A stretch of 64,000 nucleotides of DNA from Rhodanobacter sp. (GTDB lineage: Bacteria; Pseudomonadota; Gammaproteobacteria; Xanthomonadales; Rhodanobacteraceae). The notes beneath the pieces are model-generated. The model made no database searches. It had not been told where the DNA came from and saw only the letters and a list, made by a program, of their open reading frames with translations. The position numbers and the translations under genes are program-made. Of this stretch, positions 23,022 through 33,943 are shown in pieces. The DNA lies in the NCBI GenBank assembly GCA_004298045.1, contig SCRM01000005.1, positions 124,001-188,000 on the forward strand, given 5' to 3'. The first letter of the stretch is position 1, and the number at the start of each line of letters is the position of its first letter.

Positions 23022-23552
23022 ATGCACAAGCCGTTTCTCGCCGTGTTGCTGCTGGCGCTGACTGCCACTGCTGCGCAGGCCCAGAACACGCGCTACGCCA
23101 ATGCCGGCAGCGCCGACGCGCATTACGGCTGGGCCGACGTGCTGCGCGTGGACCCGGTGTACGCCGTCACCCGCACCCAGGTGCCGCGCCAGCAGTGTTA
23201 CGACGAGCAGGTGGTGCAGCAGGATCGCGGCAACAGCACCGCCGGCACCATCCTTGGCGCGGTGGTGGGCGGCGTGCTCGGCAACACCATCGGCAAGGGT
23301 GATGGCCGCAAGGCCGCCACGGTGGTTGGCGCAGTGGCGGGTGGCGCGGTGGGCAATCGCGTTTCCGACCACGGCGGCAGCTACGCCACCACGCAAACCC
23401 GCTGCCGCGAGGTGAGCGCGGTGAGCGAGCAGCGCCAGATCATGGGTTATGACGTCGAATACCGCTATCGCGGCGAGGTGTACGAGTCACGCCTCAACTA
23501 CGACCCGGGCGAGCGCCTGCGCGTGCGGGTGAGCGTGACGCCGGCCGATTGA
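23022..23552 (+). CDS. Secreted glycine zipper 2TM domain protein
   Basis: The 176-aa protein has a signal peptide (MHKPFLAVLLLALTATAAQAQ, probable cut after AQA). It then has a glycine-zipper segment from about 73 to 120, with repeated GAVVGG, GNTIGKG and GAVAGGAVGN. Such proteins sit in the envelope or outer membrane; the molecular role of this subfamily is not established. Three cysteines remain in the mature part. It starts at ATG 23022. A TTGACC at its stop codon may belong to the arg operon promoter. Confidence 0.8.
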   Translation: MHKPFLAVLLLALTATAAQAQNTRYANAGSADAHYGWADVLRVDPVYAVTRTQVPRQQCYDEQVVQQDRGNSTAGTILGAVVGGVLGNTIGKGDGRKAATVVGAVAGGAVGNRVSDHGGSYATTQTRCREVSAVSEQRQIMGYDVEYRYRGEVYESRLNYDPGERLRVRVSVTPAD

Positions 23553-23579
23553 CCGGGCATGTTGCATAGCAGCGAAAAT
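23549..23579 (+). promoter_or_regulatory. Possible promoter upstream of the arg leader
   Basis: TTGACC at 23549-23554 overlaps the previous gene's stop. GAAAAT at 23574-23579 matches four of six -10 positions, but the 19-bp spacer is long. A start near 23586 would leave about 245 nt of leader before argF'. Confidence 0.3.
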
Positions 23580-23585
23580 GCCGGC

Positions 23586-23720
23586 ATGATGCAGGCTCGC
23601 TCGACCGGAACCATGATGTCTTCAGCCGCCTATACCGCCAATGTCCTGACCAGCGCCCGCATGGCCGCCGGCATGACTTCGCGCGCGCGCCGACCGTCGG
23701 GTAGCCATCCGGCCGGGTAG
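23586..23720 (+). CDS. Putative arginine leader peptide
   Basis: This 44-codon ORF (in-frame internal ATGs at 23613 and 23661) runs in the 277-bp gap before argF'. Near its end it encodes TSRARRPSGSHPAG, with three Arg codons in four (CGC GCG CGC CGA, 23682-23693), including CGA, which I expect to be rare in such a GC-rich genome. Its last codons and TAG overlap GGCCGGGT at 23711-23718, which is perfectly complementary to the left arm of the downstream terminator. This is the layout of ribosome-mediated attenuation. No good Shine-Dalgarno is visible for any start, so translation is inferred. Confidence 0.4.
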   Translation: MMQARSTGTMMSSAAYTANVLTSARMAAGMTSRARRPSGSHPAG

Positions 23721-23763
23721 GCTGTCGCACGCTTTTGCACTGCGCATCGACGAAAACCCGGCC
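23711..23763 (+). promoter_or_regulatory. Putative antiterminator pairing in the arg leader
   Basis: GGCCGGGT (23711-23718) can form eight perfect base pairs with ACCCGGCC (23756-23763). That sequence is also the core of the left terminator arm, so the two structures exclude each other. A ribosome stalled at the Arg codons would leave 23711-23718 free; one at the TAG would cover it. Confidence 0.45.
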
Positions 23764-23780
23764 CCTCGGCCGGGTTTTCG
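23751..23780 (+). terminator. Perfect intrinsic terminator/attenuator upstream of argF'
   Basis: CGAAAACCCGGCC and GGCCGGGTTTTCG form a perfect 13-bp stem with a CCTC loop and a T4 tract in the right arm. It is 50 bp before the argF' ATG and about 200 bp after the previous gene. It could simply end that gene, but the overlapping antiterminator arm suggests attenuation. Confidence 0.75.
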
Positions 23781-23829
23781 TGTTTCAGGGGTTTGCCCGC
23801 CGCAACATCCACCATCGGAACGTTTGCCC

Positions 23830-24849
23830 ATGACCATTCGCCACTTCATCACCACCCAGGACTGGAGCCGCGCCGAGATCGACGCGCTGCTCGACGATGC
23901 GGCGGCGTTCAAGCGCTCGCCGGTCGGCAGCCAGTTGGCCGGCAAGGCGGTGGTGCTGCTGTTCTTCAACCCCTCGATGCGCACCCGCACCAGCTTCGAG
24001 CTGGGCGCGTTCCAGCTCGGCGGCCACGCGGTGGTGCTGCAGCCCGGCAAGGATGCGTGGCCGATCGAGTTTGCGGAAGGCACCGTGATGGACGGCGACG
24101 CCGAGGAGCACGTGAAGGAAGTGGCGCGCGTGCTGAGCCGCTATGCCGATCTCATCTGCGTGCGCGCCTTCCCCAAGTTCAGGGATTGGTCGGTGGACCG
24201 CGAGGACCAGGTCATCAAGGCGTTCGCGAAATACGCGACGGTGCCGGTGATCAACATGGAAACGATCACCCACCCGTGCCAGGAGCTGGCGCATGCGCTG
24301 GCGCTCAGGGAGCACCTGGGCGACCTGCGCAAGAAGAAATACGTGCTGACCTGGACCTATCACCCCAAGCCGCTCAACACCGCGGTGGCCAATTCCGCGC
24401 TGCTGATCGCCACCAAGCTCGGCATGGACGTGACGCTCCTGTGCCCCACGCCCGACTACGTGCTGGACGAGCGCTACATGGCGTTTGGCCGGCTGAATGC
24501 GCAGGAGAATGGCGGCTCGCTCACGGTGAGCCACGACATCGACGCGGCCTACAGCGGCGCCGACGTGGTGTACGCGAAGAGCTGGGGCGCGCTGCCGTAT
24601 TTCGGCCAGTGGGAAAAGGAGAAACCCATCCGCGACCAGTACCGGCACTTCATCGTCGACGAGGCCAAGATGGCGCTCACCAACCACGCGGTGTTCAGCC
24701 ATTGCCTGCCCTTGCGGCGCAACGTCAAGGCCACCGACGCGGTGATGGACGCCCCGTACTGCATCGCCATCGACGAGGCGGAAAACCGGCTGCATGTGCA
24801 GAAGGCGGTGATGGCGCGGCTCGCCGCCCTCGCTGGCAACGGCAAGTAG
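23830..24849 (+). CDS. argF': N-acetylornithine carbamoyltransferase (xanthomonad ArgF')
   Basis: The 339-aa enzyme carbamoylates N-acetylornithine to N-acetylcitrulline. The length equals the characterised Xanthomonas campestris enzyme. The carbamoyl phosphate motif is SMRTRTSFE near residue 49, HPCQELAHALAL is the central signature, and SHCLPLRRNVK near 290-300 carries the catalytic Cys and the Lys that is carboxylated in X. campestris. ATG 23830 is preferred to a TTG two codons upstream. It is the first gene of an operon containing every arginine step except ArgD and carbamoyl phosphate synthesis. Confidence 0.95.
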   Translation: MTIRHFITTQDWSRAEIDALLDDAAAFKRSPVGSQLAGKAVVLLFFNPSMRTRTSFELGAFQLGGHAVVLQPGKDAWPIEFAEGTVMDGDAEEHVKEVARVLSRYADLICVRAFPKFRDWSVDREDQVIKAFAKYATVPVINMETITHPCQELAHALALREHLGDLRKKKYVLTWTYHPKPLNTAVANSALLIATKLGMDVTLLCPTPDYVLDERYMAFGRLNAQENGGSLTVSHDIDAAYSGADVVYAKSWGALPYFGQWEKEKPIRDQYRHFIVDEAKMALTNHAVFSHCLPLRRNVKATDAVMDAPYCIAIDEAENRLHVQKAVMARLAALAGNGK

Positions 24850-24865: not shown

Positions 24866-25351
24866 ATGGCGTTCGAGCATCGCTATCGGGTCGAGGTGGA
24901 GTGGACGGGCAACCGCGGCAGCGGGACTTCCGCGTATCGCGCGTACGACCGCGACCACGTCATTCGCATCGACGGCAAGCCCGAGCTGGCCGGCTCGGCC
25001 GACCCCTCGTTTTTCGGCGACCGGGCAAGGTACAACCCGGAGGACATGCTGCTGTCCGCACTTTCCGCTTGCCACATGATGAGCTACCTGCACATGGCGA
25101 CCGTGGCCGGCGTGGTCGTCGTCGCCTATGTCGACCATGCCGAGGCGACGATGGCGACCGCGGGCGAGGGTGGCCATTTCGTCGAAGCCGTACTGCAGCC
25201 GGTGGTCACCATCAGCGCGGAGAGCGATCCCGCCAAGGCGCTGGCGGCCCATAACGCCGCGCACCACGCCTGTTTCATCGCCAATTCGGTCAATTTCCCA
25301 GTGCAGGTGGTGCCGCGGATCGAGAAGCCGGGATTCGAGATACGGGATTAG
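24866..25351 (+). CDS. OsmC family protein
   Basis: The 161-aa OsmC/Ohr-fold protein has its two expected cysteines, in [11 protein letters not shown] near residue 74 and HHACFIANS near 139. OsmC/Ohr proteins reduce organic hydroperoxides. It sits between argF' and argG, 16 bp after argF', so it is probably co-transcribed. Its last residues (EKPGFEIRD) and TAG stop are encoded by a heptad repeat arm, so the natural C-terminus seems to have been replaced or extended by repeat sequence. Confidence 0.85.
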
Positions 25352-25453
25352 GGATACGCAAAAGCCAAAGCACGCCGCTCGCCACTTTCATTTACCCAGG
25401 AACCTCCATGTCATCTCAACCCGATTCCACGAATCCCCAATCCCATACCCCGG
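25328..25453. repeat. Inverted pair of heptad arrays, locus 3 (end of OsmC gene to start of argG)
   Basis: The left arm 25328-25358 (GGGATTC, GAGATAC, GGGATTA, GGGATAC units) encodes the OsmC C-terminus and its stop. The right arm 25421-25453 (GATTCC, GAATCCC, CAATCCC, ATACCCC units) lies inside argG codons 6-15. The 62-bp spacer holds the argG ribosome binding site. Confidence 0.85.
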
Positions 25454-26652
25454 ATGCCGGCTCCAAGGCCATCGTGCTCGCGTTTTCCGGCGGGCTGGAT
25501 ACCAGCTTCTGCGTGCCGTGGCTCAAGGAGCGCGGCTGGGCGGTGCACACGGTATTTGCCGATACCGGCGGCGTGAGCGACGAGGAGCGCGCGTTCATCG
25601 AGGCGCGGGCCAAGGAGCTGGGCGTGACCAGCCACGCCACGGTGGATGGCGGGTCGGCGATCTGGAACGGTTTCGTCAAGCCGTTCGTGTGGGCGGGCGA
25701 GGCGTACCAGGGGCAGTATCCGCTGCTGGTTTCGGACCGCTACCTGATCGTGGAGGCGGCACTCAAGCGCGCCGCCGAGCTCGGCACGCGCGCCATCGCG
25801 CACGGCTGCACCGGCATGGGCAACGACCAGGTGCGGTTCGACCTCACGGTGAAGTCGCTCGGCGACTACGAGATCGTGGCGCCGATCCGCGAGATCCAGA
25901 AGGAGCACACGCAGACCCGCGCCTACGAGCAGAAGTATCTCGAAGACCACGGCTTCGGCGTGCGCGCGAAGCAGCAAAGCTACACCATCAACGAGAACCT
26001 CTTGGGCGTCACCATGTCCGGCGGCGAGATCGACGCCTGGCAGGCGCCCCGCCCCGAGGCGCGCGCGTGGTGCAAGCCGCGCGCCGAATGGCCGTCCAAA
26101 CCGCTCGCGGTGAAACTCCGCTTCGAACATGGCGAGGCGGTTGCGCTCGACGGCGAAAAGCTCGCGGGGCACAAACTGCTGCAAAAGCTCAACCACCTGT
26201 TTGCGCCGTATGGCGTGGGCCGCGGCGTGTACACCGGCGACACCACCATTGGCCTCAAGGGCCGCATCATCTACGAGGCGCCGGGGCTGATCTCGCTGCT
26301 CACGGCGCATCGCGCGCTGGAGGAGGCGGTGCTGACCAAGCTGCAGAACCGCTTCAAACCCGAGGTGGCGCGCAAGTGGATCGAGCTGGTGTACGAGGGT
26401 TTCTTCAAGGACCCGCTCAAGACCGACCTCGAGGCGTTCCTCGCATCGAGCCAGGCCAAGGTCAACGGCACGGTGACGCTGGAAACCGCCGGCGGCAGCA
26501 TTGGCGCAGTGGCGGTGGAATCGCCGCACATCCTCGCGGCGAAAGGCGCCACCTATGCGCAATCCGCCGACTGGGGCGTGGCCGAGGCCGAGGGCTTCAT
26601 CAAGCTGTTCGGCATGAGCTCCACCTTGTGGGCGGAGGTCAACCACCCGTGA
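25408..26652 (+). CDS. argG: Argininosuccinate synthase
   Basis: The 414-aa enzyme condenses citrulline and aspartate using ATP. The PP-loop is [11 protein letters not shown] near residues 25-35, and [14 protein letters not shown] and the central [10 protein letters not shown] segment are intact. The start ATG 25408 follows CAGGAACCTCC. The first 18 or so residues, [17 protein letters not shown], are low-complexity and encoded largely by a heptad repeat arm; the conserved domain starts at about [11 protein letters not shown]. Its stop overlaps the argE GTG. Confidence 0.96.
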
Positions 26653-27797
26653 GCAAGGGCGAACTTTTCGTTATCCGCGACTGGATGCTGCTGGATGCCA
26701 CGCTCAAGCATCTGGCGGCGCTGGTGGCGTTCGACACCCGCAACCCGCCGCGTGCGATCGGCACTGACGGCATCTTCGATTACCTGCGCGCGCAGTTGCC
26801 CGGCTTCGATTTCACCCTGGCCGACCACGGCGCCGGCGCGGTGAGCCTGTACGCGCGGCGCGGCAACCCGAAGCTGCTGTTCAACGTGCATCTGGACACC
26901 GTGCCCGACTCGCCGGCGTGGACGCGCGATCCGCACGTGCTCGCGGTGGACGCCGACCACGCCACCGGCCTCGGCGCGTGCGATATCAAGGGTGCCGCGG
27001 CAGGCCTGCTGTCGGCGGCGAACACCACCACCGGCGACATGGCGATGCTGTTCACCACCGACGAGGAGGCGAATGATCCGCGCTGCGTCACAGCGTTTCT
27101 CGCCGCCTGCGAAGCCGGCACGCTGCCGAAGCCGGAAGCGGTGATCGTGGCCGAGCCCACGCGCAGCAAGGCGGTGCTGGCGCATCGCGGCATCCAGTCG
27201 GTGTTGATGAAATTTGCTGGCCACGTCGGCCACGCCTCGGCCAAGCAGAAGCCGGGCGACAGCGCGCTGCATCAAGCCGTGCGCTGGGGCAACGCGGCGC
27301 TCGATTACGTGGAGTCGCAGGCGGCGGTGAAGTTCGGCGGCCTGCGCGGCCTGCGCTTCAACATCGGCCGCATCGAGGGCGGGATCAAGGCCAACATGAT
27401 CGCGCCGGCGGCCGAGCTGCGCTTCAACATGCGGCCGCTGCCGTCGATGGACCCGGATGCGCTGCTGGCGACGTTCCGCGGCTTTGCCAGCGAAGTGGCC
27501 CCGGCGCATTTCGAGGAAACCTTCCGCGGTCCCTCGTTGCCGGCCGGGCCGGCCGAGCGTACCGAGGCGCGGCGCATCCAGGCGGAAATGCTGGCCGAAG
27601 AGCTGGGCATCACGGTCGGCGCGGCGGTGGATTTCTGGACCGAGGCCGCGCTGTTTTCCGCTGCGGGCTACCCCGCGTTCGTGTTCGGCCCGGGCGACAT
27701 TGCGCAGGCGCATGCGGCGGACGAGTGGGTCGACCTGGCCCAGTTGCAGCAACACGCGGAAACCATTCAGGGAATCGTGAGCCGTGGACTCGCCTAA
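26649..27797 (+). CDS. argE: N-acetylcitrulline deacetylase (xanthomonad ArgE)
   Basis: The 382-aa M20-family metallohydrolase shows HLDTVPD near residue 81, [21 protein letters not shown] and the C-terminal [15 protein letters not shown], all zinc-site signatures. In xanthomonads with an acetylornithine transcarbamylase this enzyme deacetylates N-acetylcitrulline rather than acetylornithine; the neighbouring argF' supports that. GTG 26649 overlaps the argG stop and has GGAGG 10 nt upstream. ATG 26685 is the alternative and matches the family N-terminus better, but it lacks a ribosome binding site. Confidence 0.9.
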
Positions 27798-29106
27798 GCA
27801 CTCAACCCGCAAGACCATCGTGCGCCTGCTGTCGGCAATGGGCAGCGCGAAGGAAATCCAGCAGTACCTCAAGCGCTTCTCCGAGATCGACGCCAAGCGC
27901 TTTGCGGTGGTGAAGGTTGGCGGCGCGGTGCTGCGCGACGAGCTGCAGGACCTTGCTTCCTCGCTCACCTTTCTGCAGCAGGTCGGCCTGACCCCGATCG
28001 TGCTGCACGGCGCCGGCCCGCAACTGGACGCGGAGCTGCACGCGGCGGGCATCGAGAAGGAAACGGTCAATGGCCTGCGCGTGACCTCGCCCAAGGCGCT
28101 GGGCATCGTGCGCCAGGTGTTCATGCAGCAGAACCTGAAACTGGTGGAGGCGCTGCAGGGCATGGATACGCGCGCGACCTCGGTCGCGGCCGGCGTGTTC
28201 ATGGCGAGCTACCTCGACCGCGAACGGCTCGGCATGGTCGGCAAGGTGGAACACGTGAACCTCGCGCCGATCGAGGCCGGGCTGCGCGCCAATTCCATTC
28301 CCGTCGTCGCGAGTCTGGGCGAAACCCGCGAGGGCCAGTTGCTCAACATCAACGCCGACGTGGCCGCGAACGAGCTGGTGCGCGTGCTGCAGCCGTACAA
28401 GGTGGTGTTTCTCACCGGCACCGGTGGGCTGCTCGACGAACGCGGCAAGGTGATCGACTCGATCAACCTGTCGACCGAATACGAGACGTTGATGGCGCAG
28501 CCGTGGATCACCGGCGGCATGCGCTTGAAGCTCGAACAGATCGCCGACCTCTTGAACGACTTGCCGCTGACCTCGTCGGTGTCGATCACGCGCCCGGCCG
28601 AGCTGGCGAAGGAACTCTTCACCCACAAGGGGTCCGGCACGCTGGTACGGCACGGCGAGAAGGTGCTTCGCTACACGCGCTGGGCCGAGCTCGACCGCGA
28701 ACGCCTGCGCGGGCTGATCGAATCGAGTTTCAGGCGCAAGCTGGTGGCCGATTACTTCGAGCACACCACGCCATATCGCGTCTACGTGAGCGAGAACTAT
28801 CGCGCGGCGATGATCCTGACGCTGCAGGATGGCCTGCCGTATCTCGACAAGTTCGCCGTGCTCGACGACGCGCAGGGCGAGGGCTTGGGGCGCGCAGTAT
28901 GGCAGGTGATGCGCGCGGAGAATCCGCGGCTTTTCTGGCGCTCGCGGCACAACAACCCGGTCAACATTTTCTATTACGCCGAATCGGACGGCAGCCTGAA
29001 GAAAACCCGCTGGAAGGTTTTCTGGTATGGCCTGGACGGCAATTTCGACACCATTGCGCGCTGCGTGGATTATTGCGAAGGGCACAGCCCGACACTGGTG
29101 GATTGA
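27784..29106 (+). CDS. argB: Bifunctional N-acetylglutamate kinase / N-acetylglutamate synthase (XcNAGS-K type)
   Basis: The 440-aa protein joins an amino-acid kinase domain (about 1-290; KVGGAVL near 43, [19 protein letters not shown]) to a GNAT domain (about 295-440; [36 protein letters not shown]). It therefore makes N-acetylglutamate from acetyl-CoA and phosphorylates it, as the X. campestris NAGS-K does. The GTG start overlaps the end of argE by 14 bp. Such enzymes are usually feedback-inhibited by arginine. Confidence 0.93.
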
Positions 29107-29115
29107 GGATCGACG

Positions 29116-30069
29116 ATGACATCCGCAAAACAGACCGTAGGCATCGTGGGCGCGCGCGGCTACACCGGCGCCGAATTGATCCGCCTGATCGCCGGGCACC
29201 CGGCACTGGAGCTCGCGTTTGTCTCCTCGCGCGAGCTGGATGGCCAGCGCGTGGCCAAACACAACGCGGCCTATCGCGGCGAGCTGCGCTACGAGAAACT
29301 CGATCCCGATGCGGTGGCAGCGAAGCGTGCCGACGTGGTGATCCTTGCGCTGCCCAACGGCAAGGCGGCGCCCTTCGTGGCGGCATTGGACAAGACGGCG
29401 CCGGAAACCTTGATCGTCGACCTGTCCGCCGATTACCGCTTCGACCCGGCGTGGTACTACGGCCTGCCCGAGCTCACGCGCAACAAGTGGCGCGGCGGCA
29501 AGCGCATCGCCAACCCCGGCTGCTACGCCACGGCCATGGAGCTTTCCATTGCGCCAGTGAAGGATCTGCTCGCCGCCCCGCCGGTGTGTTTCGGCGTATC
29601 CGGCTATTCCGGCGCCGGCACCACGCCATCGGACAAGAACAATCCGGAAAAGCTGCACGACAACCTGATGCCGTATGCGCTGGTTGGCCATGGCCACGAG
29701 AAGGAGGCCGGTTTTCAGCTCGGCATCCCGGTGGAGTTCATGCCGCATGTCGCGCCGCATTTTCGCGGCCTCACCGTCACCACCAATTTGTATCTGTCGA
29801 AGCCACTGAAGCGCGAGGAAGTCCTGGCACGCTTCCATCACGCCTACGACGGCGAACCTCTGGTGCGCGTCGGGGATGACGCGCCGTGGGTGAGCCGCGT
29901 CGCCAACACCAATCGCGCCGAAATCGGCGGCTTCACCCTCTCTGCCGACGGCAAACGCCTCGTCACCGTGGCTGCGCTGGACAACCTCCTGAAAGGCGCC
30001 GCGACCCAGGCGCTGCAGAACATCAACCGGGCGTTGGGGTTGGCTGAACTGACCGGGATTGGGGATTAG
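29116..30069 (+). CDS. argC: N-acetyl-gamma-glutamyl-phosphate reductase
   Basis: The 317-aa NADPH-dependent reductase has the Rossmann start [17 protein letters not shown]. The active-site Cys is in [11 protein letters not shown] near residue 136, and [12 protein letters not shown] and the HVAPHFRGL segment follow. It starts at ATG 29116 with GAGGATCG upstream, 9 bp after argB. The last residues, LTGIGD, and the TAG stop come from a heptad repeat arm, the second case in this operon where repeat sequence ends a gene. Confidence 0.95.
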
Positions 30070-30192: not shown

Positions 30193-31488
30193 ATGCCCCA
30201 ACCCCTCTGGCAAAAATCCGGCATCCAGATCGACGCGCGGATCATGCGGTTCATGGCCGGCGACGACGTGCTGCTGGATCGCGAGTTTTTCCTCTGCGAC
30301 ATCACCGCCAGCAAGGCGCATGTGGAGGGGCTGGCGAATATCGGCGTGGTCAGCGCGGAGGAGGCCGCAGCGCTCAAGCGCGAACTGGACGCGCTGGCGG
30401 CGGATTTCACCCGCGGTGCCTTCGTGCTCGACGCGCGCTTCGAGGATGGCCATTCGGCGATCGAGGCACGGCTGACCGAGCGCCTCGGAGATGCCGGGCG
30501 GCGCGTGCACACCGGACGCAGCCGCAACGACCAGGTGCTGGTGGCAACGCGCCTGTGGCTCAAGGACAAGCTCGCGGCGCTGGACGTGGCGTGCCGCGCG
30601 ATTGCGCAGGTGTGCCTGGAGCGTGCCGCGCAGCCGGCGATCCCGTTGCCCGGCTACACCCACCTGCAGCGCGCGGTGGTGTCGTCCACCGCGATGTGGT
30701 TTGCCGGGTTTGCCGAGGGCTTCATCGACAACGCGCTGCGCGCGCAGCAGACGCTGGCCTTGATCGACGCGAATCCGCTCGGCACCGCGGCGGGCTACGG
30801 CGTGAACCTGCCGCTCGACCGCGCACATACGACCAGGGCGCTCGGCTTTGCGCGCATGCAGGTGTCGCCGATCTACGCCCAGCTTTCGCGCGGCAAGTTC
30901 GAGCTGGCGGCGCTCGAGGCGTTCGCCTCGGCGTTGCTCGACCTGCGGCGCATGGCGTGGGATCTCTCGCTGTTCACCACGTCCGAGTTCGACTTCGTGC
31001 ACCTGCCGCCGGAATACATCACCGGCAGCTCGATCATGCCGAACAAGCACAACCCGGACGTGGTGGAGCTGTTGCGCGCGAGCTACGCGATGGTGGCCGC
31101 CTCGCGCTGCGAGATCGAGCAGTTGTTGTCGTTGCCCAGCGGCTACCAGCGCGATCTGCAGTTCACCAAGGGGGCGTTGTGTCATGGCGTGCTGCATGGC
31201 CTGGGCGCGCTGGAGCTGGTGCCGGATCTCTTGACCCGCATGGCGTGGAACGAGCCGGCGATGCGCGCCGCGATCGAGCCGGCGATGTATGCCACCGACG
31301 TCGCCATCGAGCACGCCGCCGCCGGCGTGCCGTTCCGCGACGCGTATCGCGCGGCCGCCGAAGCCGCCGCCGCGGCCGGACAGGGGCGCACGCCGGAAGG
31401 CAGCCTCGCGGCACGCATGTCACCCGGTGCGAGCGGCGACTTGCGACTGGACGAACTCGTGGCGCGCCTGCGCGCGCTGGATCACTAG
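30193..31488 (+). CDS. argH: Argininosuccinate lyase
   Basis: The 431-aa fumarase-superfamily enzyme splits argininosuccinate to arginine and fumarate. It has [10 protein letters not shown] near residue 107, [10 protein letters not shown], and the superfamily signature [12 protein letters not shown] near 282. ATG 30193 follows TTGGAG. The upstream open frame is heptad repeat. The C-terminus is slightly shorter than the 457-aa E. coli enzyme. It is 123 bp after argC, the largest internal gap, filled by repeats. Confidence 0.95.
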
Positions 31489-31496
31489 GAGCCGCC

Positions 31497-32681
31497 ATGG
31501 CGCAGGGGAGCAAAACGGACGAACGCCACGCGTTGCCGGCGCAACCCTTGCCGGCATGGCGGCGCGCCGTGCTCAAGGTCGGCAGCAATCTTTTGGCGGC
31601 CGATGGCGGCGGCCTGACCAAGCAGCACGCGTCGGCGCTGGCGGCGTTCATCGCGGCGAGCCAGGTGCAGGGCCGCGAGGTGGTGCTGGTGTCTTCCGGT
31701 GCGGTTGCCGCCGGGCGCGCGCGCTTGCGCGAGTACGCGCGCAACCCGGGCGAACTCGCCGCGCGACAGGCGCTGGCCGCGCTCGGCCAGGCGCCGATGG
31801 TGGCGTTGTGGCAATCGCTCTCGGTGCGTCCGGTGGCGCAGGTGCTGCTGACCCACGACGACCTGCGCAACCGGCGACGCTACCTCAATGCGCGCGCAAC
31901 GCTGCGCGAGCTGTTGCGGGTCGGCGTGCTGCCGGTGGTGAACGAAAACGACACCGTGGCGGTGGACGAGCTCAAGGTGGGCGACAACGACAATCTCGCC
32001 GCGATCGTTGCTGCGCTGGTCGACGCCGACCTGCTGCTGATCGCCTCCGACGTGTCGGCGCTGTACGACGCTGACCCGCGCGCACATGCCGATGCCACGC
32101 CGGTGTTGCAGATTCCCGCGCTGACGCCGGAGATCTTGGCCATGGCCGGCGAGGCCGGCAGCACGGTCGGCACCGGCGGCATGCGCACCAAGTTGCAGGC
32201 CGCGAAAAAGGCCGCCGCAGCCGGCATTCCCACCGCACTGTTCAACGGGCGCGAGGTGGACACCGTGCGTGCACTCGAACGTGGCGAGCTGCATGGCAGC
32301 CTGTTTGCGGCGAGCGCCACGCGACCGCATGCGCGCAAATACTGGCTGCGGCACGCGCCAGCCGCGGCCGGGCGCATCTGCGTGGATGCCGGCGCTGCGC
32401 GCGCGCTGGTCGGCGGAAGGGTGTCGCTGCTGCCCGGCGGCGTGCTCGGCGCCGAGGGCGAGTTCCACCGTGGCGATCTGGTCGAAATCGTCGGCGTCGA
32501 CGGCGCTGGCGTTGCGCGCGGCCTGTGCCATTACAACGCCGCCGAGGTGCGTCGGCTCGCCGGCCATCACACGCGCGAAATCGTCGAAGTACTTGGCTAC
32601 AGCTACGGCGACGAGGTGGTGAATCGCGACGATCTCGTCGTCACCCGCGTTCCCACCCCCCACGAGGAGTTGTCCGTATGA
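31497..32681 (+). CDS. proB: Glutamate 5-kinase
   Basis: The 394-aa protein phosphorylates glutamate in proline synthesis. It has an amino-acid kinase domain ([10 protein letters not shown] near 25, [37 protein letters not shown]) and a C-terminal PUA domain (about 290-394; [22 protein letters not shown]). It follows argH by 8 bp, so proline and arginine synthesis, which share glutamate, are probably co-transcribed. Its stop overlaps proA (ATGA). Confidence 0.95.
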
Positions 32682-33943
32682 GCACGATCCGCGATCAAGC
32701 CGCCGCCTGTCGCGCTGCGGTACCGGCAATTGCCGCGCTGGACAGCGTCGCCAAGCGTGACCTATTGCGCGCGATGGCCAACGAGCTCGAAGCGCGCCGC
32801 GATGCCGTGCTCGCCGCTAATGCCGAAGACATGCGCGCCGCCGAAGCGAAGGGCGTGCAGGGCGCCATGCTCGACCGCCTGCGGCTCGACGCCGCGCGCA
32901 TTGCCGGCATCGCCAACGCGCTGCGTGAAGTGGCCGAGTTGCCCGACCCGGTGGGACAGGTGACCCGCAGCGAGACGCGGCCCAACGGCATCCGCGTCGA
33001 ACGCGTGCGCATCCCGCTCGGCGTGATCGCGATGATCTACGAGGCGCGCCCCAACGTCACGGCCGATGCCGCGGCGCTGTGCCTCAAGGCCGGCAACGCG
33101 GTGATCCTGCGCGGCGGTTCCGAGGCGATCCACTCCAACCTGGCGATTGCCGCGGCGCTGCACGTGACGCTGGCAAAACACGGCCTGCCGGAGGCGGCCG
33201 TCACCGTGCTCGACGACCTTTCGCGCGAGGCGATGATCGAACTGCTGCAATTGAGCGACCTGGTCGACCTCGCGATTCCGCGTGGCGGCGAAGGCCTGAT
33301 CCGGTTCGTCACCGAGCACGCGCGGGTGCCGGTCATCAAGCACTACAAGGGCGTGTGCCACCTCTACGTGGATCGCGCCGCCGATCTCGACCTGGCGCTC
33401 GACCTGCTGGTCGACGGCAAGACCTCGCGCCCCGGTGTATGCAATGCGCTGGAAACGCTGCTGGTGCATCGCGATGTCGCCGCGGAGTTCCTGCCGCGGG
33501 CGGCCGCGGCATTGCGCGCCCGTGGCGTGGAGCTGCGCGGCGACGACGCCAGCCGCGCGCTGGTGCCGGACATGCACGCGGCGACCGACGCCGACTACGC
33601 CGCGGAATTCCTCGACCTCATCATCGCCGTGCGCGTGGTGGACGATCTCGACGCGGCGATCGAACACATCCGCCGCTACGGCTCCGACCACACCGAAGTC
33701 ATCGCCACCGGCGACGACGCCGCCGCGCGCCGCTTCGTGCAGGCGATGCGCTGTGCCGTGGTGATGGTCAACGCCTCCTCGCGGTTTTCCGACGGCGGCG
33801 AGCTGGGCCTGGGCGCCGAGATCGGCATCTCCACCACGCGCCTGCACGCCTACGGCCCGATGGGCGCCGAAGCGCTCACGATCGAACACTTCGTGGTGCG
33901 CGGCGAGGGGCAGGTGCGGCACGCGGCGTCGAGAGGTTCTTAG
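32678..33943 (+). CDS. proA: Gamma-glutamyl phosphate reductase
   Basis: The 421-aa aldehyde-dehydrogenase-fold enzyme makes glutamate-5-semialdehyde with [52 protein letters not shown] and the catalytic Cys in [15 protein letters not shown] near residue 253 are intact. It is translationally coupled to proB and ends the cluster; no clear terminator follows directly. Confidence 0.96.

Follow-up and report, generated by a model that had tools for sequence, protein, structure and literature searches.

The window analysed here is a stretch of 64,000 nt of Rhodanobacter sp. DNA (contig SCRM01000005.1), and all coordinates below refer to its forward strand. We describe the leader element that lies between the stop codon of an upstream gene, at 23552, and the ATG of argF', the gene for N-acetylornithine carbamoyltransferase. 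As shown in Table 1, this gap carries a promoter-like block, a short open reading frame (ORF) and a hairpin followed by a T-run, and profile matches identify the genes downstream as an arginine synthesis cluster followed by proB and proA. An earlier reading made from the sequence alone (the sequence-only reading) had proposed for this place an attenuator of the trp/his type responding to arginine, pointing to an Arg-rich short ORF, to an octamer over its last codons and stop that is complementary to the left arm of a terminator, and to a perfect 13-bp terminator about 50 bp before argF'. All three features are present. The ORF contains the R-A-R-R codons CGC GCG CGC CGA and ends in a TAG; the octamer GGCCGGGT, hereafter segment 2, lies 20 nt past the last Arg codon and forms eight perfect base pairs with ACCCGGCC inside the left arm (segment 3); and the hairpin CGAAAACCCGGCC-CCTC-GGCCGGGTTTTCG (23751–23780) has 13 perfect pairs and a T-run, with the argF' ATG (23830) 49 nt beyond. 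The ORF start, in turn, had to be moved. A start near 23586, as assumed before, is rejected because it falls within the predicted −10 element CATGAT (23585–23590), and the start conserved in relatives is the ATG at 23616.

Table 1. Features of the leader element and of the genes behind it, in window coordinates
Feature	Position	Strand	Basis
Predicted promoter: TTGCAT (23562–23567), 17 nt, CATGAT (23585–23590)	23562–23590	+	Block pattern chosen after the sequences were seen; under the consensus-scan threshold
Leader peptide ORF, 34 aa, MSSAAYTANVLTSARMAAGMTSRARRPSGSHPAG; ATG at 23616, stop TAG at 23718–23720	23616–23720	+	Start conserved in relatives
Codons of the invariant core GMTSRARR	23670–23693	+	Conservation across families f1–f4
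Segment 1, Arg cluster CGC GCG CGC CGA (R-A-R-R), proposed stall site; rare CGA last	23682–23693	+	Codon usage
Segment 2, GGCCGGGT, proposed antiterminator strand, over the last leader codons and the first stop base	23711–23718	+	Spacing, covariation
Segment 3, terminator left arm CGAAAACCCGGCC; ACCCGGCC at 23756–23763 perfectly complementary to GGCCGGGT	23751–23763	+	Sequence
Segment 4, terminator right arm GGCCGGGTTTTCG	23768–23780	+	Sequence
argF', N-acetylornithine carbamoyltransferase, first structural gene	23830–24849	+	NF003384, 609.5 bits (cut-off 288)
OsmC/Ohr-like protein, between argF' and argG	24866–25351	+	Matches below curated cut-offs
argG, argininosuccinate synthase	25408–26652	+	NF003385, 753.1 bits (cut-off 603)
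argE-type acetylornithine deacetylase	26685–27797	+	NF006439, 568.3 bits (cut-off 345)
argB, acetylglutamate kinase (long form)	27838–29106	+	NF003386, 743.2 bits (cut-off 417)
argC	29116–30069	+	TIGR01850, 308.2 bits (cut-off 233.6)
argH	30193–31488	+	TIGR00838, 275.3 bits (just below cut-off 279.5)
proB	31497–32681	+	TIGR01027, 398 bits (cut-off 186)
proA	32678–33943	+	NF001221, 592.5 bits (cut-off 289)

Taken alone, the window sequence gives a weak signal. The leader stretch as a whole folds no better than its shuffles (z −0.44), a terminator scan gave one site where 0.8 were expected by chance, and no promoter passed the threshold of a consensus scan. A single hairpin is thus unexceptional in a GC-rich stretch; it could mark the end of the upstream gene, with the small ORF a chance frame, a worry that the sequence-only reading had itself raised. 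It is the relatives of the window that make the case.

For the comparison we used samples of 147 genomes from the window's family (f1), 250 from the order and 369 from the class; f2–f4 denote three further families, f5–f10 outgroup families and f12 the family in which ArgR occurs. A match to argF' was found in all 147 family genomes, a few of them weak or partial, and the upstream regions were examined in 110 (30 initial loci and 80 picked to spread over genera). The motif MTSRARR stands upstream of argF' in every one of the 110, with the core within 420 nt in 108. At two loci, L246 (genome G086) and L247 (G131), repeated elements lie between the leader terminator and argF', and the core is found 447 and 545 nt upstream. 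The alignment with relatives that had been suggested as a check came out in favour of the proposal: the Arg codons and the leader ORF are kept at 110 of 110 f1 loci and the complementarity between segments 2 and 3 (2:3) at nearly all. Counted from the nearest start, the leader has 34 amino acids in 82 of the 110 cases.

A covariance model was built from 62 leaders on a MAFFT/RNAalifold structure. In the order sample it matched, with E-values that are rough, all 52 genomes of f1 (E ≤5.7e-29), all 53 of f2 (≤5.6e-16), all three of f3 and eight of ten of f4 (≤1.3e-13, except G149 with 4.8e-10 and G183 with 2.5e-13); in both f4 genomes missed, argF' is cut by a contig end. Matches in the remaining families were near noise level. 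The loci read from f2–f4, which were selected from hits of this model, carry the core in 38 of 38 cases (one as SMTSRARR), before argF' genes of 73.9–80.9% identity. Over the tabulated f1–f4 leaders MTSRARR is kept in 146 of 146 and the preceding G in 145. Two matches outside the order, in the class sample, were discarded: the best, in G369 (43.4 bits, 4.3e-10), is a tRNA-Asn followed by a terminator (L202) and a chance hit, and the next, in G564 (36.9 bits), reads as a terminator without an Arg leader (L148). The true f4 leader of G149, confirmed by its sequence (L201), scores 44.1 bits, similar to the false hit in G369, so the model score alone fails to separate weak cases. Rows dropped were L002 and L003 (the place of a second carbamoyltransferase), L202, and L245 (28 bases at a contig end).

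An exact scan for the core codons across genomes gave at least 120 stretches, the best 80 of which were listed as loci. Three of these 80 are leaders cut by the locus end and three are unrelated frames; in the other 74 argF' lies downstream on the same strand. Genera among the matches listed include Rhodanobacter, Dyella, Frateuria, Xanthomonas, Stenotrophomonas, Lysobacter, Luteimonas and Pseudoxanthomonas. Such a constant neighbour downstream speaks against a hairpin that merely ends the upstream gene, and so does a comparison of ten loci, where the upstream frames change from family to family but leader, hairpin and argF' remain side by side. With the extreme purifying selection on the leader peptide described below, this explanation becomes very improbable.

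In the outgroup families f5–f10 a short ORF with an Arg cluster precedes the terminator in 30 of 34 argF' upstream regions read, these ORFs having been chosen by eye and not blind. The outgroup peptides are unlike the core and, between families, unlike each other (e.g., MTAHVHFPAQLKAPVIQAALRRRRRLSQRRAG, MNAHAAISIRTNPRRRRVSQSTAG, MMNRPANKDIRRLRRPRTGNRAG, and MTKSNSPIRRRRRRDPALAGLFDL). L203 (G246, f8), a weak match to the covariance model, carries an unrelated Arg-run leader, MIKYAHQKIAIRRRRGTN, before an argF' of 66.7% identity. Unrelated peptides that share an Arg cluster, a position and a pairing with the terminator are the classical signature of amino-acid attenuation.

A terminator (hairpin and T-run) was parsed in 176 of 178 leaders, the exceptions being L059 and L220, and the following counts refer to these 176 unless stated otherwise. 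Segment 2 lies 17–22 nt beyond the last Arg codon in 159 leaders, while the leader stop lies anywhere from +6 to +42 nt. The leaders thus preserve the distance on which a stalled ribosome would depend, but not the point at which the ORF ends. Changes in segment 2 go with changes in segment 3: GCCGG faces CGGC in 105 leaders and GCTGG faces CAGC in 39; the mixed pairs GCTGG/CGGC (G-U possible) and GCCGG/CAGC (a mismatch) occur in five and three, and 24 are other or unassigned. As the switch is also seen within families (L075 in f1; L187 and L177 in f2; L226, L234, and L203 in the outgroups), the covariation is more than a family split. In 108 f1 leaders, a set that includes one mis-parsed terminator (L022), matched 2:3 duplexes were stronger than cross-species ones, to an extent reached in none of 2000 permutations. 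The observed 2:3 complementarity was attained by at most 5% of 50 dinucleotide shuffles in 125 leaders. We also folded the leaders with a ribosome of an assumed 13-nt footprint in place. With the ribosome modelled at the last Arg codon, the antiterminator is part of the minimum free energy (MFE) structure of 172 leaders; when it is at the stop, 4 nt or more of segment 2 lie under it in 175; and without a ribosome the terminator is in the MFE structure of 165.

The leader peptide itself is strongly conserved. On a tree made from the leader flanks, codons 0–7 of the core in 146 leaders have undergone 147 synonymous changes and a single nonsynonymous one, and the non-Arg codons −5, −2, 0, 2, 3, and 5 show 1 nonsynonymous against 131 synonymous. 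At A(−2), G, T, and A(5) the third position is free to vary, which means that the amino acids are what is kept there, and TCG, CGA and the stretch AGC-GCC-CGC are largely held at third positions too. A Pro follows the Arg pair in 134 of the 146 leaders; the N-terminus, the C-terminus and the position of the stop are variable. CGA serves as the final Arg codon of the core in 144 of 148 f1–f4 leaders, whereas in 69 argF' genes it makes up 22 of 1330 Arg codons (1.7%); in 30 outgroup leaders 50 of the 132 Arg codons around the cluster are CGA. A sensor that is to be sensitive would be expected to rely on such a codon, rare and poorly decoded.

Attenuation by codon counting alone has no need of conserved residues outside the sensor codons. 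The freezing of the non-Arg core residues as well suggests that the nascent peptide itself matters, and from the A..A.GMTSRARR pattern held in four families we infer a role of the nascent chain, which most likely makes the stall stronger or sets its timing. It may even be an arrest peptide proper, in which the nascent A..A.GMTSRARR stalls the ribosome and the signal is relief by arginine or a related metabolite, and not uncharged tRNA-Arg alone. The 131 synonymous changes against one nonsynonymous at non-Arg codons and the Pro behind the Arg pair fit such a peptide, as does the span of the conserved residues, 13 codons up to the stall site, where the chain would meet the exit tunnel. On the other hand, the outgroup leaders manage without the motif, and the third positions of AGC GCC CGC, TCG, and CGA CCG are constrained, so that RNA constraints contribute. 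Arginine-induced arrest would have the wrong sign at the proposed stall site, which leaves relief by arginine, or dependence on Arg-tRNA, as the workable forms. We give the arrest peptide a chance slightly short of even.

Arginine synthesis in Gammaproteobacteria is usually described as controlled by ArgR. This repressor is absent from the window's family at the curated cut-off: PF01316 exceeded it in none of the 147 family genomes, with two sub-threshold matches seen, while in a control search 8 of 14 named genomes, E. coli among them, were over the cut-off. In the order sample ArgR was above the cut-off in 8 of 250 genomes, all from f12, leaving 242 without. Of these eight f12 genomes, seven have only weak argF' matches (1e-62 to 1e-75), while the eighth has no match at 1e-60. 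The families of L215, L231, L232, and L233, four outgroup loci discussed below, have no ArgR above the cut-off in the order sample either. The sequence-only reading is thus corrected in three respects: the leader starts at 23616, the whole peptide and not the Arg codons alone is strongly selected, and ArgR is absent at the curated cut-off.

The promoter-like block was counted within 70 nt upstream of the leader by the pattern TTGC..-16 to 18 nt-.A...T, which was chosen after the sequences had been seen. It precedes 97 of 104 f1 leaders (shuffles would give 5.4; six f1 leaders with less than 70 nt of upstream sequence were left out), 27 of 27 in f2 (0.7) and 14 of 22 in f8 (0.8), as well as in 3/3 leaders of f3, 3/3 of f5 and 1/1 of f9. 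A promoter pick limited to 50 nt had given scattered positions in f1 and was replaced by this pattern. The block ends 24–27 nt ahead of the leader start in 64 of 97 cases in f1; the distance to the leader ATG is 6–10 nt in 22 of 27 f2 and 12 of 14 f8 cases (e.g., L182, L221, and L225). The f2 and f8 leader mRNAs therefore look near-leaderless, and the 5' end of a Xanthomonas homologue (see below) agrees with the short spacing. The lack of a clear Shine-Dalgarno sequence had been counted as a weak point of the proposal; near-leaderless mRNAs may answer it in most of f2 and many of f8, though not in the window's genus. For the window we rejected leaderless translation, since its −10-like element ends 25 nt before the ATG, as in most of f1. 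Internal initiation at the core ATG is unlikely because A −5, A −2, and G 0, which precede that codon, are conserved.

Anatomy, conservation, covariation, spacing, codon choice and the absence of ArgR form the basis on which we regard the element, with high confidence, as a ribosome-mediated transcription attenuator by which the sensing of charged arginyl-tRNA controls argF'-argG-argE-argB-argC-argH(-proBA). The trp/his-type logic proposed for arginine from the window alone is thereby supported by conservation, spacing and covariation in relatives. The leader ORF would be translated and the operon read as a single transcript. When arginine is plentiful, the ribosome would reach the leader stop and cover segment 2 (GGCCGGGT), leaving segments 3 and 4 to fold into the terminator, which would end transcription. 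Under arginine shortage the ribosome would instead stall, waiting at CGC-GCG-CGC-CGA with segment 2 free 20 nt ahead; segment 2 would then pair with segment 3, and RNA polymerase would read on. The switch would make the operon respond to arginine and would take the place of the ArgR that is missing from the window's family. At the far end of the cluster, proB and proA (31497–33943) stand directly behind argH in the same orientation. As they adjoin argH on the same strand, proline synthesis may also fall under the arginine leader.

A relative of the leader has already been catalogued. According to the passages of PMC3039613 (2011) that concern it, sRNA-Xoo5 of Xanthomonas oryzae lies between PXO_00354 and PXO_00353, the latter an N-acetylornithine carbamoyltransferase in the protein table of that paper; the RNA was cloned, its 5' end was mapped by rapid amplification of cDNA ends (RACE), its length is 124 nt, and Northern bands were seen near 130 and 100. 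The Rfam model RF02242, of 124 positions, passes its gathering threshold on 14 of 15 f2 loci tested (58.8–144.2 bits; the fifteenth 40.4). The window reaches 27.3 bits, below the gathering value of 50, and is thus a relative and not a member at this threshold. On f2 leaders, position 1 of the model maps 2 nt ahead of the leader ATG and a long way upstream of the terminator; we take it as the mapped 5' end because the model is as long as the RACE product. A transcription start past the terminator, which the sequence-only reading had named as contradicting its proposal, is hence not what the X. oryzae homologue has. By its sequence and place Xoo5 is the Xanthomonas homologue of the leader, and so the leader RNA of the argF' operon, filed as a small RNA.

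The Rfam entry implies a different function, in which the leader would work mainly as a trans-acting small RNA, or its product as a functional micropeptide, with attenuation secondary. Leader RNAs with roles in trans exist, rhizobial trpL being one, and a frozen peptide could act after its release. Xoo5 was, moreover, cloned and seen in Northern blots as a discrete RNA (PMC3039613, in the passages on this RNA). We nonetheless find a primary function in trans improbable. The leader stands before argF' in 77 of the 80 core-codon loci listed, counting the three cut ones; a free peptide is made unlikely by the variation at both termini and in the position of the stop; and the spacing together with the 2:3:4 covariation is best explained by attenuation in cis.

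Several observations weigh against the attenuator. The published 3' end of Xoo5 lies just before segment 3 and does not match the terminator: in four f2 loci (L182, L183, L186, and L207) the model of this RNA reaches to nt 124, some 20 nt beyond the stop codon of the leader (nt 104) yet short of segment 3 (nt 128–131), and the expected terminated leader has 155–158 nt against the published 124. Trimming or a cloning artefact is a possible reason. Because part of the covariation follows the division into families, the counts overstate the number of independent switches; and in f3, f4, and f10 the 2:3 complementarity stands out poorly from shuffles. A protector pairing between segments 1 and 2 (1:2) is complementary and showed no covariation in the 108 f1 leaders (282 of 2000 permutations). 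From the MAFFT alignment of 62 leaders RNAalifold recovered the terminator, not 1:2, and 2:3 only when folded alone, probably because gaps around segment 2 break the helices; pairing was then assessed by per-sequence parsing and duplex energies. The selection of the f2–f4 loci from model hits and the choice by eye of the outgroup ORFs, both mentioned above, count here as well. No Arg leader was found on reading in 4 of the 34 outgroup regions (L215 in f6; L231, L232, and L233 in f10), and the promoter block was not found in the leaders of f4 (0/8), f7 (0/2), and f10 (0/2).

A broader picture can be drawn tentatively, and we hold it to be nearly, if not quite, an even bet. Most of the order would have an attenuator replacing ArgR, and in four families the Arg-codon counter would have become an arrest peptide, joining codon counting to nascent-chain arrest, with the chain aiding sensing or timing; Xoo5 would be the spent leader. 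The attenuator, whose features are present in most argF' upstream regions read, is a likely answer to how Xanthomonadales that lack ArgR adjust arginine synthesis, and it would give a function to the Rfam small RNA Xoo5. Arg-rich leaders that vary freely at one end and a frozen peptide at the other form a natural series, which may help to show how a codon-counting leader turns into an arrest peptide.

Among known systems, the trp, his and leu attenuators of Proteobacteria are alike in having codons for the end product in a leader ORF, an antiterminator alternating with an intrinsic terminator, and the matching operon downstream. They differ in that the amino acid here is arginine, residues other than the sensor are conserved in four families, and many leaders of the other families look almost leaderless. 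In fungi, the arginine attenuator peptide is an upstream peptide that makes a gene of arginine synthesis answer to arginine; it is eukaryotic and acts by arginine-induced arrest, the wrong sign at the stall site proposed here. sRNA-Xoo5 (RF02242), a homologous RNA, occupies the equivalent position ahead of argF'; it is listed as a small RNA gene, and its model stops before the terminator. In the parts of PMC6386406 on the Salmonella speF leader, pausing at consecutive Arg codons of orf34 likewise reports arginine and alters the fate of the mRNA; that system controls ornithine decarboxylase through Rho, exposure of the ribosome binding site and RNase G, whereas here arginine synthesis would be governed by an intrinsic terminator. 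uORFC-8-2 before cysS in Rhodobacterales, as presented in the relevant part of PMC8632094, is also a ribosome-mediated attenuator with tandem sensor codons recognised by comparative genomics; its amino acid is cysteine and its order alphaproteobacterial. For carA of pseudomonads, attenuation and a leader peptide come up in a passage of PMC4997734. The passages on the topic in an attenuator survey (PMC2965389) and a regulon survey (PMC5343134) do not mention an arginine leader, and no description of this one was found in the titles and abstract openings of the open-access papers searched, subscription papers being mostly outside the search. The arginine attenuator, the best-supported view of the element, is of a known kind; what is new is the amino acid, its place in ArgR-less lineages over much of the order, and the frozen leader peptide.

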